From NCBI GenBank assembly GCA_023150875.1, contig JAKLKC010000032.1, forward strand, positions 1 through 64,000: a stretch of DNA of 64,000 nt. The letters run 5' to 3'. Under the pieces are notes generated by a model. It had not been told where the DNA came from and did not search any database. It worked only from the letters and a program-made list of their open reading frames with translations. Every line of letters begins with the position of its first letter. Position 1 is the stretch's first letter. Shown here one piece after another: positions 48,480 to 54,131 of this stretch. The stretch is from Myxococcota bacterium (GTDB lineage: Bacteria; Myxococcota_A; UBA796; UBA9615; JAKLKC01). The position numbers were made by a program, and so were the translations under genes.

Positions 48480-49517
48480 TCACCCCGGCCCCCACACCAG
48501 GACCGCGAGCCCACCACCCCGGGCCGCCGCGAGTTGCAGCACGGGCGCCCCCAGACGGCCCGCCAGGCGGCAGGCGGCGATGCCCCGGGCGACCCCGGCG
48601 GCGGCGAAGCAGCCGTGCCCCGGGGCGGGGTCCACCACCTCGGCCGCCCCGAGGCCGGGGAGGCTCTCCCGCACCGCGTCCCAGGGCTCCCGTCCCGGCG
48701 CGGCCTCCGCCGGGGACGATACCGTCCCCCCCACCGCCGCCGCCCGGACCCCCGCCCGGGCCAGCGCCCGCTCCACCACCCGCAGCGCCGCCGCCACGTC
48801 CTGGGTGGCGGCGCCCAGGGCCGCGGGCCCCCTTCCCAGGGCCCCCCCCAGCAGCCACGCCCGAGGGGTGGCCCCGCGCCCCGCCGCGCACCGGGGATCC
48901 TCCAGGAGCAGGGCCGCCGCTCCTTCCCCAGGGACCGGCACCTGGGCGGCCCCCAGGTGCCGCCGCAACATGCGCCGCGCGGTCCCCAGCTCCTCGCCCC
49001 CCACCGCCAGGGCCAGGTCCGCCCGCCCGTTCCCGATCTGCGCCTCCGCCCAGAGCAGCGCCTCCTCACCGCTCGTCTCGGCGTGGGTGAAGGTGGCGCT
49101 CGGCCCGGTCAGGCCCGCGAGGATCGACAGGTAGCCCGCCGCGGCGTTGGGGACGAGGTTCGGGAAGGCCATCGGGTTGGCCAGGGCCGGCCCCTTGTCC
49201 CGAAGGCGCTCCAGGTAGGCCCACGTCTCGTCGAGGGCGCCCAGGTCGGTGCCGACGGCCACGGCCACCCGTTCACCCCCGCCGGGGAGGGGCCGGGATC
49301 CCCCGAGGCCGCCGTCCCCCAAGGCGCGGAAGGCGGCGGCCGCCATCAGGCGGGACAGGCGGTCCATGCGCCGGAGCATCGCGTGGTCGGGCACGTCGTC
49401 CCGGACGCTGAAGGCGGAGAGGACCGCCTCCGGGGCCCCGTCGCCGGGGGATGCCAGCACCTCGCCCCAGCCGGTGACGGCCAGCCCCCGCCCGCCCACC
49501 TCCCCGGGCTCAGCCAC
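48480..49517 (-). CDS. Beta-ketoacyl synthase-like protein, active Cys replaced by Glu (KS-beta 2)
   Basis: A 345-aa thiolase-fold protein of ketosynthase type but shorter than usual. Where a ketosynthase has the nucleophilic Cys (TAC.S), this one reads THAETSGEEALLWA, with Glu147 at that place. It should not condense by itself and resembles chain-length factors (KS-beta) that dimerise with an active KS. The likely partner is the KS encoded just upstream, whose gene overlaps this GTG start by 8 bp. Other KS-fold parts are kept (PNAAAGYLSILAGLTGPSATFTH, LALAVGGEE). It ends the type II operon before the SelW-like gene. Confidence 0.85.
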   Translation of the reverse strand: MAEPGEVGGRGLAVTGWGEVLASPGDGAPEAVLSAFSVRDDVPDHAMLRRMDRLSRLMAAAAFRALGDGGLGGSRPLPGGGERVAVAVGTDLGALDETWAYLERLRDKGPALANPMAFPNLVPNAAAGYLSILAGLTGPSATFTHAETSGEEALLWAEAQIGNGRADLALAVGGEELGTARRMLRRHLGAAQVPVPGEGAAALLLEDPRCAAGRGATPRAWLLGGALGRGPAALGAATQDVAAALRVVERALARAGVRAAAVGGTVSSPAEAAPGREPWDAVRESLPGLGAAEVVDPAPGHGCFAAAGVARGIAACRLAGRLGAPVLQLAAARGGGLAVLVWGPG

Positions 49518-50745
49518 GGCGCCACTCCGGCGCGGCGACCACCAGGCAGGCGTCGTTCCCCCCGAAGGCGAAGGAGTTGGAGATCGCCATCCGGACCCGC
49601 GCGGGGCGGGACTCGTTGGGGACCGGGTCGAGGTCGCAGGCGGGATCCGGCACCCCGAACCCCCCGGTCGGCGGCAGGAACGCGCCCTCCAGGGCGGCGA
49701 CGCAGGCGACCGCCTCGATGGCCCCGGAGGCGCCGAGGGTGTGGCCCACGAGGCTCTTGGTGGAGCTGACCGGGAGCGCCCTCCCGGGGATCCGATCCCC
49801 GAAGACCCGGGTCAGGGCCCGGGCCTCCATGACGTCGTTGGCCGGGGTGGCAGTGCCGTGGGCGTTGACGTAGTCCACGTCCCGGGCCTCGATCCCGGCG
49901 TCGGCGAGGGCCATCTCGATGGCGCGGGCCGCGCCGCTGCCGTCCTCCATGGGGTGGACGATGTGGTGCCCCTCGGCGGAGCAGCCGTGGCCCAGCAGGC
50001 GGGCCAGCACCCGCGCGCCCCGGGCCCGGGCGTGGGCCTCGCTCTCCAGCACCAGGACCGCCGCGCCCTCCCCCAGGACCATCCCCTGGCGCCGCGCGTC
50101 GAAGGGCCGGGGCTGGTCCGGCGCCACCACCCCCAGGGAGTTGAACCCGGCCAGGGTGAGCCGGCACAGGGAGTCCGCGCCGCCGGCGAGCACCACGTCG
50201 CAGGCGCCGGAGCGGATCCAGTCCAGGGCCTGGCCGAGGGCGTTGGCTGAAGACGAGCAGGCGGTGCTGAGGGCCGAGACGGGCCCGTGGGTGGTCAACG
50301 CGGCGGCGAGCTGATCGGCGGTCGACCCTACGGGGATGCGCAGGAACTCGGAGGTCGCCGGCTCGGCCCACCGCACTCCGGTCCCCGCACCCAGGATCGC
50401 CACCTCGGCCTCCGGCATCCCCGCCGTGCTCCCCCCGAGGCAGATCCCCGCCGAGCCGAGGGAGGCGCCATGGAGGGGCAGCCCCGCCTCCGCGAGGGCC
50501 TCCGCCGCCGCGAGCAGGGCCAGGCGGGTCGAGCGGTCGGCGGCGGCCTCCGCCGGACCGAAGGATGCGACCTCCGGGAGCGCCCGGACTTCCGCTCCCC
50601 GGCGCGACCGGTGGCCCCGGGTGTCGAACGACCGGATCTCCGAGATCGCCACCCTCCCCTCCCGCAGCCCGCGGGCGAAGGAGCGGCGGTCGGGGCCGAG
50701 GGCGGTGACGCAGCCGATCCCGGTGATGGCGGCCGAGACGGCCAA
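49510..50745 (-). CDS. FabF-type beta-ketoacyl-ACP synthase (KS-alpha 2)
   Basis: A 411-aa condensing enzyme. The catalytic Cys163 in LSTACSSSANALGQ, the His in VNAHGTATPANDV and the His in KSLVGHTLGASGAIE are all present, as is NSFAFGGNDA near the C-terminus. It should condense malonyl-ACP with an acyl starter. The TTG at 50745 has GAGGAGGAG before it, with one base between it and the stop of the dehydratase gene. It overlaps its degenerate partner, which supports a KS-alpha/KS-beta heterodimer as in type II polyketide, aryl-polyene or ladderane-type systems. Confidence 0.93.
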   Translation of the reverse strand: MAVSAAITGIGCVTALGPDRRSFARGLREGRVAISEIRSFDTRGHRSRRGAEVRALPEVASFGPAEAAADRSTRLALLAAAEALAEAGLPLHGASLGSAGICLGGSTAGMPEAEVAILGAGTGVRWAEPATSEFLRIPVGSTADQLAAALTTHGPVSALSTACSSSANALGQALDWIRSGACDVVLAGGADSLCRLTLAGFNSLGVVAPDQPRPFDARRQGMVLGEGAAVLVLESEAHARARGARVLARLLGHGCSAEGHHIVHPMEDGSGAARAIEMALADAGIEARDVDYVNAHGTATPANDVMEARALTRVFGDRIPGRALPVSSTKSLVGHTLGASGAIEAVACVAALEGAFLPPTGGFGVPDPACDLDPVPNESRPARVRMAISNSFAFGGNDACLVVAAPEWRRG

Positions 50746-52920: not shown

Positions 52921-54131
52921 GGTGCTCCTACCCGGGTCAGCACCAGCGCGGCGTTGTTGCCGGCGAAGGCGGAGTTGGTGGTGGCGAAGACCCGGGGTGA
53001 GGGCCCGCGGCGGGCGTCCCCCAGCACCAGGCCCGCCGGCGCCTCGGCGTCGGGCTCCCCCCGAAGGCGGGCGGCGGGGACCAGCCCCTCGGTCAGGGCC
53101 AGGACCCCCATGACCACCTCCATCGCCCCCGCGGCGCCGAGGGCGTGTCCCAGCGGCTGCTTGATGGCGTTGACGGCGACGGGCTCGGCGCGGCCTCCGA
53201 AGAGGCGGTCGATGGCCTTGGCCTCCATCGCGTCGTTGAACACGGTGCCGGTGGCGTGGGCGTTGACGAGGTCCACATCCCCGGGCCCGATCCCCGCCTG
53301 GGCCATCGCCGCCCGGAGGGCGTCCTCCACGCCTCCCCCGTCCCGCCGGGGTGCGGTGAGGTGATGGGCGTCACCGGCGAGTCCGAAGCCGTCCACCCAC
53401 GCCAGGACCCGGGCGCCCCGCCGGACGATGGCCGGCTCGGGCTCCACCACCAGCATCGCCGCCCCCTCGCCGAGCTGGAGCCCGTCGCGGGTGGCGCCGA
53501 AGGGCTCGATCCCCGAGGGGCTGAGGGCGCGCAGGGCGTCGAACCCGGCGTGGGCGAACCGCGACAGGGCGTCCGCCCCCCCCGCCAGGGCCAGGTCCAC
53601 CTCCCCCTCCGCCACCGCCTCCCGGGCGAGGCCGATGGCCCCGGTGGAGGAGCAGCAGGCCGTGACGACGGTGACCACCGGGCCCCGCGCCCCCAGCCGG
53701 CGGGCGAGGCGCTCGGCGAGGGTGCCGTGGCCGGTGAGGCGGGGATCCGGACCGTCGTCCCGGCCCGCGAGGCGGGCCCCGTGGTAGCGCTCCCACAGCG
53801 CCAGGTCGCCGCCGGAGGTGCCGACCCAGATCCCTACCCGGAGGCCGCGCCTCGCGTCCCCGTCCCCGAGGCCGGCGTGGGCGAGGGCCTGGTCGGCCGC
53901 GTCCCACAGGAAGGCGGACGCCAGCTCCCCGTCCCCCACGCCATGGCGCCGGAGCAGCTCCTCCCTCGCGGGGGCGGGCACCTGCGCGGCCACGGGTACG
54001 CGGATGTCGGCCGTGTCGTAGCGGTCCACCGGGGTGCCCCCGGCGCCGCCTCGGATCAGCCCGACGCGGAAGGCGTCGACGCCGATCCCGGCCGAGCTGA
54101 CCACTCCGAAGCCGGTGATCCCGGCGCGCAT
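52917..54131 (-). CDS. FabF-type beta-ketoacyl-ACP synthase (KS-alpha 1)
   Basis: A 404-aa condensing enzyme and the first gene of the minus-strand type II operon. Catalytic Cys159 in VVTACCSSTGAIGLA, the His in LVNAHATGTVFNDA and the His in QPLGHALGAAGAMEV are present, and NSAFAGNNA closes the domain. The ATG at 54131 has GGAGGAAG directly upstream; the frame reaches 54497 but only in non-coding composition. It is probably paired with the degenerate KS-beta 1 encoded next. The operon continues with ACP, dehydratase, a second KS pair, the SelW-like protein, ModA-like protein and radical SAM enzyme. Confidence 0.93.
   Translation of the reverse strand: MRAGITGFGVVSSAGIGVDAFRVGLIRGGAGGTPVDRYDTADIRVPVAAQVPAPAREELLRRHGVGDGELASAFLWDAADQALAHAGLGDGDARRGLRVGIWVGTSGGDLALWERYHGARLAGRDDGPDPRLTGHGTLAERLARRLGARGPVVTVVTACCSSTGAIGLAREAVAEGEVDLALAGGADALSRFAHAGFDALRALSPSGIEPFGATRDGLQLGEGAAMLVVEPEPAIVRRGARVLAWVDGFGLAGDAHHLTAPRRDGGGVEDALRAAMAQAGIGPGDVDLVNAHATGTVFNDAMEAKAIDRLFGGRAEPVAVNAIKQPLGHALGAAGAMEVVMGVLALTEGLVPAARLRGEPDAEAPAGLVLGDARRGPSPRVFATTNSAFAGNNAALVLTRVGAP

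Follow-up and report, generated by a model that had tools for sequence, protein, structure and literature searches.

Aryl polyene (APE) synthases of Acinetobacter, Xenorhabdus and E. coli hold two ketosynthases (KSs) per cluster, ApeR and ApeO, one of which comes with a degenerate, truncated partner (ApeO-ApeC), and the second thiolase domain of this chain-length factor (CLF) is described as nearly lost (PMC8358021). Related arrangements are given in other papers, i.e., the anammox set kuste3603-3608 comprises an acyl carrier protein (ACP), FabZ, FabF, a non-canonical FabF, a phytoene desaturase and a radical SAM protein (PMC4790861), the cispentacin proteins AmcF-AmcG form a heterodimer of KS-like proteins for one extension and ring closure while the hot-dog protein AmcE decarboxylates (PMC10698177), and the polyunsaturated fatty acid (PUFA) synthases PfaC/Pfa3 carry KS and CLF in one polypeptide (PMC8436480). 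A catalogue of type II polyketide synthases (PKSs), as excerpted, reports delta-proteobacterial and planctomycete KS-CLF matches without detail (PMC10132072). Here, we analyse a stretch of 64,000 nucleotides from a Myxococcota bacterium (contig JAKLKC010000032.1, positions 1 to 64,000; in the following the window), whose source assembly comprises 6.92 Mb in 180 contigs and which encodes on its minus strand (54131→48480) six genes with two KS pairs in the order KSα1–KSβ1–ACP–dehydratase–KSα2–KSβ2.

We read this cluster, with a probability of roughly 0.6, as a dedicated type II fatty-acid/polyketide synthase in which two KS–CLF-like heterodimers and one aryl-polyene-type ACP would produce an unsaturated envelope acyl chain, with ketoreductase (KR) activity and malonyl loading supplied in trans.

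Gene content and active-site residues

All six genes are found where the original prediction had placed them, including the single ACP and the single dehydratase between the KS pairs. KSα1 (52917..54131, 404 aa, PF00109/PF02801, PF00109 E 4.7e-30) and KSα2 (49510..50745, 411 aa, PF00109 E 8.6e-37) are intact ketosynthases with the residue sets Cys159-His-Lys-His and Cys163-His-Lys-His, i.e., both keep C163/H303/K335/H340 when aligned to E. coli FabF (whose numbering is used here), and the predicted cysteine positions are correct. Each of them is directly followed and overlapped by a degenerate partner, as had also been claimed: KSβ1 (51940..52920, 326 aa, PF00109 E 3.9e-20) shares 4 nt with KSα1 (52917-52920), carries Asp165 at the Cys column and has an eroded C-terminal half, while KSβ2 (48480..49517, 345 aa, PF00109 E 1.4e-16) shares 8 nt with KSα2 (49510-49517) and carries Glu147. 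Both partners have lost the remaining catalytic set as well. Type II KS-CLF systems are marked by an active KSα with a homologous KSβ behind it that has no catalytic Cys. This arrangement occurs twice, and a free-standing ACP is present in the cluster, too. Since the GC content by codon position is coding-like for each of the six genes and a second family of the order shows the orthologues in synteny, we consider the gene set real and not a chance arrangement. Neither a KR nor an acyltransferase or a phosphopantetheinyl transferase (PPTase) is annotated within the cluster by Pfam and NCBIfam, which agrees with the prediction.

The ACP (51571..51846, 91 aa, GLGLDSLDALQLA with Ser46, PF00550 E 4.7e-10) scores 56 bits to the E. 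coli aryl-polyene PP-binding protein compared to 19 bits to AcpP. The models PRK09184 and PRK09185 are among the top NCBIfam matches, the ACP reaching 63.4 bits on PRK09184 (below the cut-off of 70), and Ser46 is invariant among the orthologues compared. The FabZ-like (hot-dog) dehydratase (50747..51283, 178 aa, start codon uncertain) ends 1 nt ahead of KSα2. It has no Pfam match, and its NCBIfam FabZ match (3.6e-9) is weak and stays below the cut-off. Its alignment with four orthologues shows His27 and Glu71 to be invariant, which we take to be the FabZ-type catalytic residues. Its best PDB matches are 8ayc/8ayb/8ayi/7qv0 (E about 1e-5). The entries 8ayb-8ayi are presumably anammox proteins, and likewise 9s5h. 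Taken together, the dehydratase and the aryl-polyene-type ACP favour an unsaturated over an aromatic acyl product.

To compare active sites, we aligned 21 α/β pairs (from the window, its orthologues, a further copy on contig C92 of the same genome and seven loci with fused pairs, with fused halves cut by hand from domain ends) to E. coli FabF. The catalytic Cys163, His303, Lys335 and His340 are kept in 21/21 KSα, while the Cys is kept in 0/21 KSβ. In aromatic type II PKSs, the CLF has Gln where the KS has Cys. The window partners show Asp and Glu instead, and Gln is found in 1/21 KSβ. The original prediction regarded this departure from Gln as noteworthy, which does not hold: the column shows L (4), P (3), D (1) and R (1) among nine KSβ1 and G (4), S (2), A (2), E (2), D (1) and Q (1) among twelve KSβ2. 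Even close relatives differ, i.e., four KSβ2 orthologues have E, E, D and S and the KSβ1 orthologues D and R, the latter residue being also present in the aligned ApeC, so that Gln does not mark the KS-CLF systems at large. Beyond that, Asp163 and Glu163 have been in print since 2009, tabulated by Rattray and colleagues for two R. baltica (Rhodopirellula) FabF paralogues next to Val, Phe and Ser at the same position in three K. stuttgartiensis FabF paralogues (table in PMC2649909). We therefore rejected Asp/Glu as a signature. Judged from this alignment, the site is free to vary in KSβ and its residue carries little information.

Phylogeny, conservation and natural fusions of the pairs

The strongest evidence for an α/β partnership comes from relatives in which the pairs are naturally fused. 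Among 30 loci read with clade profiles, six encode a single protein of KSα2-type plus KSβ2-type with a KSα1-type frame nearby. Together with a Myxococcales metagenome-assembled genome (MAG), this gives seven loci (19-20 kb read), which show an ACP of the same type as in the window, a fused KSα2·KSβ2, then a fused KSα1·KSβ1 and a small lipoprotein that is SnoaL-like by weak matches. The KSα1·KSβ1 fusion is present in 7/7 of these distant-family loci, which had been chosen for the KSα2·KSβ2 fusion and not for this one; two of the seven belong to one genus. That is, two different fusions occur per locus, and no further domain was matched in the fused proteins. Along with the overlapping genes, the matching α/β trees and the contrast of 21/21 versus 0/21 retained cysteines, the fusions lead us to infer that KSα and KSβ are partners. 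Gene overlap and the fusions in relatives are indirect signs that they may form heterodimers in this organism.

Within the fused loci (L241-L246 and L233), the two KS pairs are separated by a gene for a lipoprotein-like product of some 240-265 aa, which was read in at least five of the seven. Three of its products were tested and have no Pfam match, and a relation to the APE proteins LolA or DUF3261 was ruled out by hhalign. Likewise, comparison ruled out that the SnoaL-like protein is a relative of the window dehydratase. Upstream, the two annotated fused loci (L242, L243) encode a divergent enoyl-CoA hydratase. Genome G008 likewise encodes a fused KSα–KSβ protein, of 798 aa, (L046:8371-10767) beside genes for a KS, an ACP, an ACPS-type PPTase, a 3-hydroxyacyl-CoA dehydrogenase and an enoyl-CoA hydratase.

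In the KSα tree (43 rows), KSα2 shares a clade (99/97) with the orthologous proteins, the C92 copy and the fused MAG protein, while KSα1 groups (97/96) with its counterpart in genome G003 and a fused MAG protein, adjoining the KSs of larger clusters. Neither is grouped with ApeO or ApeR, both of which are long branches. In its main groups, the KSβ tree mirrors that of KSα, i.e., KSβ2 (93/95) and the 9s5h partner set (81/91) come out as matching groups. The placement of the KSβ1 rows, close to the long branch of ApeC, is poor. Approximately unbiased (AU) tests reject a KSα2+FabF clade (p 0.0023) as well as a KSα1+KSα2 clade (p 0.012); these p-values need care, given that several rows are long and the tested groups were defined with the tree already known. 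Since KSα1+KSα2 is rejected, the two pairs are not recent duplicates, and we discarded a recent tandem duplication of one pair. KSα1, for which the FabF grouping was left to the tree, stands apart from FabF there. As KSα2+FabF is rejected, a separate FabF-like KS (C136) exists elsewhere in the genome and the ACP is nearer to the aryl-polyene carrier than to AcpP, we consider the system a dedicated one.

Orthologues in unfused form are conserved as well. The genome G003 from another family of the order shows the identical order KSα1-KSβ1-ACP-dehydratase-KSα2-KSβ2 behind MMPL, polysaccharide deacetylase and HD-domain genes, while in G004 and G001 the MMPL and deacetylase genes are followed by ACP-dehydratase-KSα2-KSβ2, and the first KS pair is absent from this place. 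Identities to the window proteins are 50-54% for KSα2, 40-44% for KSβ2, 37-41% for the dehydratase and 42-46% for the ACP. KSβ2 orthologues above 100 bits are found in 4/377 genomes of the phylum (including the window genome) and in 3/6 other genomes of the order. Matches of the KSα1-clade profile above 340 bits occur in 24/377 genomes, with 21 of these in one family; this line was set after seeing the score list, in which the B-type KSs reach about 301 bits (G003) and 293 bits (G004). Of the 24 genomes, at least 16 have a KSβ2 match at most 3.5 kb from the KSα1-clade match. The profile scan of genome contigs, from which the best 80 of 584 loci were kept, returned mostly FabF. A profile search at 1e-130 gave no match, which is due to this threshold. 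Searching 392 Planctomycetota genomes with the dehydratase gave mainly ordinary FabZ, and among the 30 loci read one shows ACP-dehydratase-KSα-KSβ. This locus (G406, L230:7600-12320) encodes consecutively a FabD-like acyltransferase, an ACP, a FabZ-like protein, a KSα, a KS-like partner and a 4HBT thioesterase, a gene order close to the second half of the window cluster.

The original prediction named two outcomes that would speak against it, namely KSs grouping with housekeeping FabF and partners that are non-conserved pseudogenes. Neither occurred, given the trees above and partners conserved across families. Its central claim, namely that two KSα/KSβ pairs make up a dedicated acyl-synthase cluster of type II, is supported.

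AlphaFold2 (AF2) models of the single chains, which cannot show a dimer, give a complete KS fold for KSβ2 (predicted local distance difference test, pLDDT, 79.4; predicted template modelling score, pTM, 0.84). Its fold search yields Z 35.9 to the ishigamide KS chain 6kxd_A (root-mean-square deviation, rmsd, 3.1 over 331 residues), tied with many FabFs; 9s5h is absent from the matches listed, an absence that carries no weight. The KSβ1 model (pLDDT 67.8) is confident to about residue 248 and low for residues 249-321, and its search gives Z 25.9 (rmsd 3.5, 291 residues) to a FabF. KSβ1 is thus shortened like the aryl-polyene CLF, which has 240 aa in E. coli, i.e., the size of the fused KSβ1 parts (226-260 aa as cut).

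Other KS loci were observed along the way. Larger clusters with two to four consecutive KSα/KSβ pairs exist in G001-G004 (L047, L045, L048, L044) and on contig C169 of the window genome (L039); most have one ACP plus genes of short-chain dehydrogenases/reductases (SDRs), and their partner residues include D, S and P. In the G004 cluster, there are additionally a two-component system and a gene resembling fatty-acyl reductases (NAD_binding_4). The C92 copy mentioned above (L041:7021-10034) is a second KSα2/KSβ2-type pair beside a recD2-like helicase gene, with no ACP seen adjoining. Contig C11 (L239:2735-5764) encodes an ishigamide/9s5h-type KSα, a degenerate partner and an ApeQ-like KR.

Proposed synthesis and competing explanations

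If the cluster is such a synthase, each KSα would form a heterodimer with the KSβ encoded directly behind it, in which KSβ shapes the chain pocket without doing chemistry, as a CLF does. By analogy with ApeR and ApeO-ApeC, one pair may start the chain or make the first extensions and the other elongate it, both acting on the single dedicated ACP. Malonyl-ACP would come from housekeeping malonyl transfer, and pantetheinylation would be supplied from elsewhere in the genome, in which one ACPS-family (PPTase-family) gene match is found. A KR from elsewhere in the genome (KR-like/SDR genes lie next to its other KS pairs) and the FabZ-like dehydratase would turn each β-keto group into a double bond. 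The unsaturated acyl chain would then be passed to a lipid and is, in the relatives, probably moved to the envelope by the linked MMPL transporter and lipoproteins; it is the relatives alone that suggest MMPL export.

Several observations weigh against this proposal. Unlike the relatives' loci, the window has no MMPL, deacetylase or HD gene, and the best MMPL match in its own genome is only 28% identical (75 bits). No KR is encoded in cis in the window, none was matched in L085 (the sole unfused relative locus given a KR query), and nothing ties the KRs of C11 or C169 to the cluster. Searching the seven fused loci gave no FabZ-like dehydratase, and therefore unsaturation does not characterise the family as a whole. 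The AU test does not reject a KSα2+9s5h/ishigamide clade (p 0.457), in which the nearest kin of KSα2 may lie, and the PDB comparisons place single-chain FabFs as high as KS/CLF chains. A relocated MMPL within the window genome was considered and rejected, given the weak match only and no deacetylase or HD match beside that gene.

The best surviving alternative, although an unlikely one, is a system of KS and cyclisation factor in which at least one of the two KSβ would direct the ring closure, following the example of AmcG and its partner AmcF in cispentacin formation, with the hot-dog protein as decarboxylase or cyclase helper. The precedent is the AmcF-AmcG heterodimer with AmcE (PMC10698177), and KSα2 reaches 243.7 bits on the AmcF model and the ACP 40.7 bits on AmcB. 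However, both scores are below the cut-offs (325 and 80), FabF models outscore AmcF on both KSα, the dehydratase retains the FabZ-type His and Glu, and no AmcH-like adenylate-forming starter enzyme is found in the cluster by Pfam and NCBIfam.

We put still less weight on a ladderane-type or anaerobic polyunsaturated-lipid pathway like that of the anammox set. It would be in line with the identical order ACP-FabZ-FabF-degenerate FabF (Table 2 of PMC4790861) and with the 9s5h/ishigamide clade not being rejected for KSα2. Furthermore, 9s5h_B, presumably an anammox protein like the best PDB matches of the dehydratase, is the best match of both KSα in the PDB sequence search. But the free tree joins 9s5h_B with the ishigamide KS and the C11 KSα of the window genome (100/99), and not with KSα1 or KSα2, and the cluster has no phytoene desaturase. 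A B12-binding radical SAM protein is encoded downstream (45700-47178, minus strand), yet it sits beyond the ModA-like solute-binding protein gene (the region spanning 45700-48088), which is separated from the cluster by a 391-nt gap. The radical SAM protein scores 108.6 compared to 360 on the ladderane-type model and stays below the cut-off of each NCBIfam model listed. Neither this protein nor the solute-binding protein has a match in the relatives' loci searched (L039-L050, L084-L090), so that neither is supported as a pathway member. On the upstream side, the cluster is flanked by a divergent lytic transglycosylase gene. Farther out, the plus strand encodes two large proteins (42078-45500 and 55841-58138) in which MopE-type metal-binding motifs recur, and one of the two has FG-GAP repeats.

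An aryl polyene cluster proper in split or reduced form appears similarly improbable to us. The ACP affinity to the APE PP-binding protein, the PRK09184/PRK09185 matches, the short CLF-like KSβ1 and the MMPL genes in relatives speak for it, while both KSα are not grouped with ApeO or ApeR (with the reservation of long branches) and the cluster lacks the starter ligase, the KR, LolA, the thioesterase and the second ACP of APE clusters. Finally, it is highly improbable that the genes are a redundant housekeeping set for fatty-acid synthesis whose duplicates are decaying. FabF models do give the best NCBIfam scores, but these are far below the FabF cut-off of 493.75, the AU test rejects KSα2+FabF, and the partners are retained in different families and occur as in-frame fusions.

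Extending our reading of a dedicated two-pair synthase, we tentatively propose, with the odds somewhat against us, an unnamed Myxococcota family with two anciently distinct and often fused KS–CLF heterodimers and one aryl-polyene-type ACP that makes an undescribed envelope lipid. Here, the pair with the truncated ApeC-like partner would start the chain, whose length would be fixed by the other pair with its full-size partner. No description of such a two-pair myxobacterial synthase family was found in the open-licence PMC papers searched, fused KS-CLF and Sorangium included. If true, a chemically well-worked phylum would hold a lipid or polyketide pathway that is conserved but unassigned, the natural fusions would be useful as single-chain KS–CLF units in structural studies and in asking how a CLF acts, and two distinct pairs on one ACP would raise a testable question on division of labour.

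Comparison with described systems

By its gene content, the cluster is neither an APE nor a ladderane-candidate nor a cispentacin cluster, as far as annotation can tell. With the aryl polyene synthases it shares the presence of two KSs, one of them with a degenerate and shortened partner, the APE-type ACP, a dehydratase and, in relatives only, the MMPL exporter (CFT073 gene table). It differs from them in having degenerate partners for both KSs and one ACP instead of two, in the lack of starter ligase, KR and LolA in cis, and in that its KSα are not grouped with the long-branched ApeO and ApeR.

Its likeness to kuste3603-3608 refers to the gene order published in Table 2 of PMC4790861 and not to a direct sequence comparison. 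In contrast to the anammox set, the window has no desaturase and shows two pairs side by side. In the same way, the likeness to the degenerate R. baltica FabF paralogues is by the published residues alone, i.e., Asp and Glu at Cys163 as tabulated in PMC2649909.

The ishigamide-type highly reducing type II PKS (Iga11-Iga12, PDB 6kxd) likewise combines a KS with a degenerate partner, and KSα1 and KSα2 score 203.7 and 234.3 bits to its KS chain 6kxd_A. This chain is in the different clade (100/99) that is represented in the window genome by the C11 KSα. Compared to the PUFA synthases, for which PMC8436480 describes KS and CLF in one polypeptide, the window genes are separate, while the relatives join KS and CLF in the same manner and carry two different such fusions with no other domain matched.

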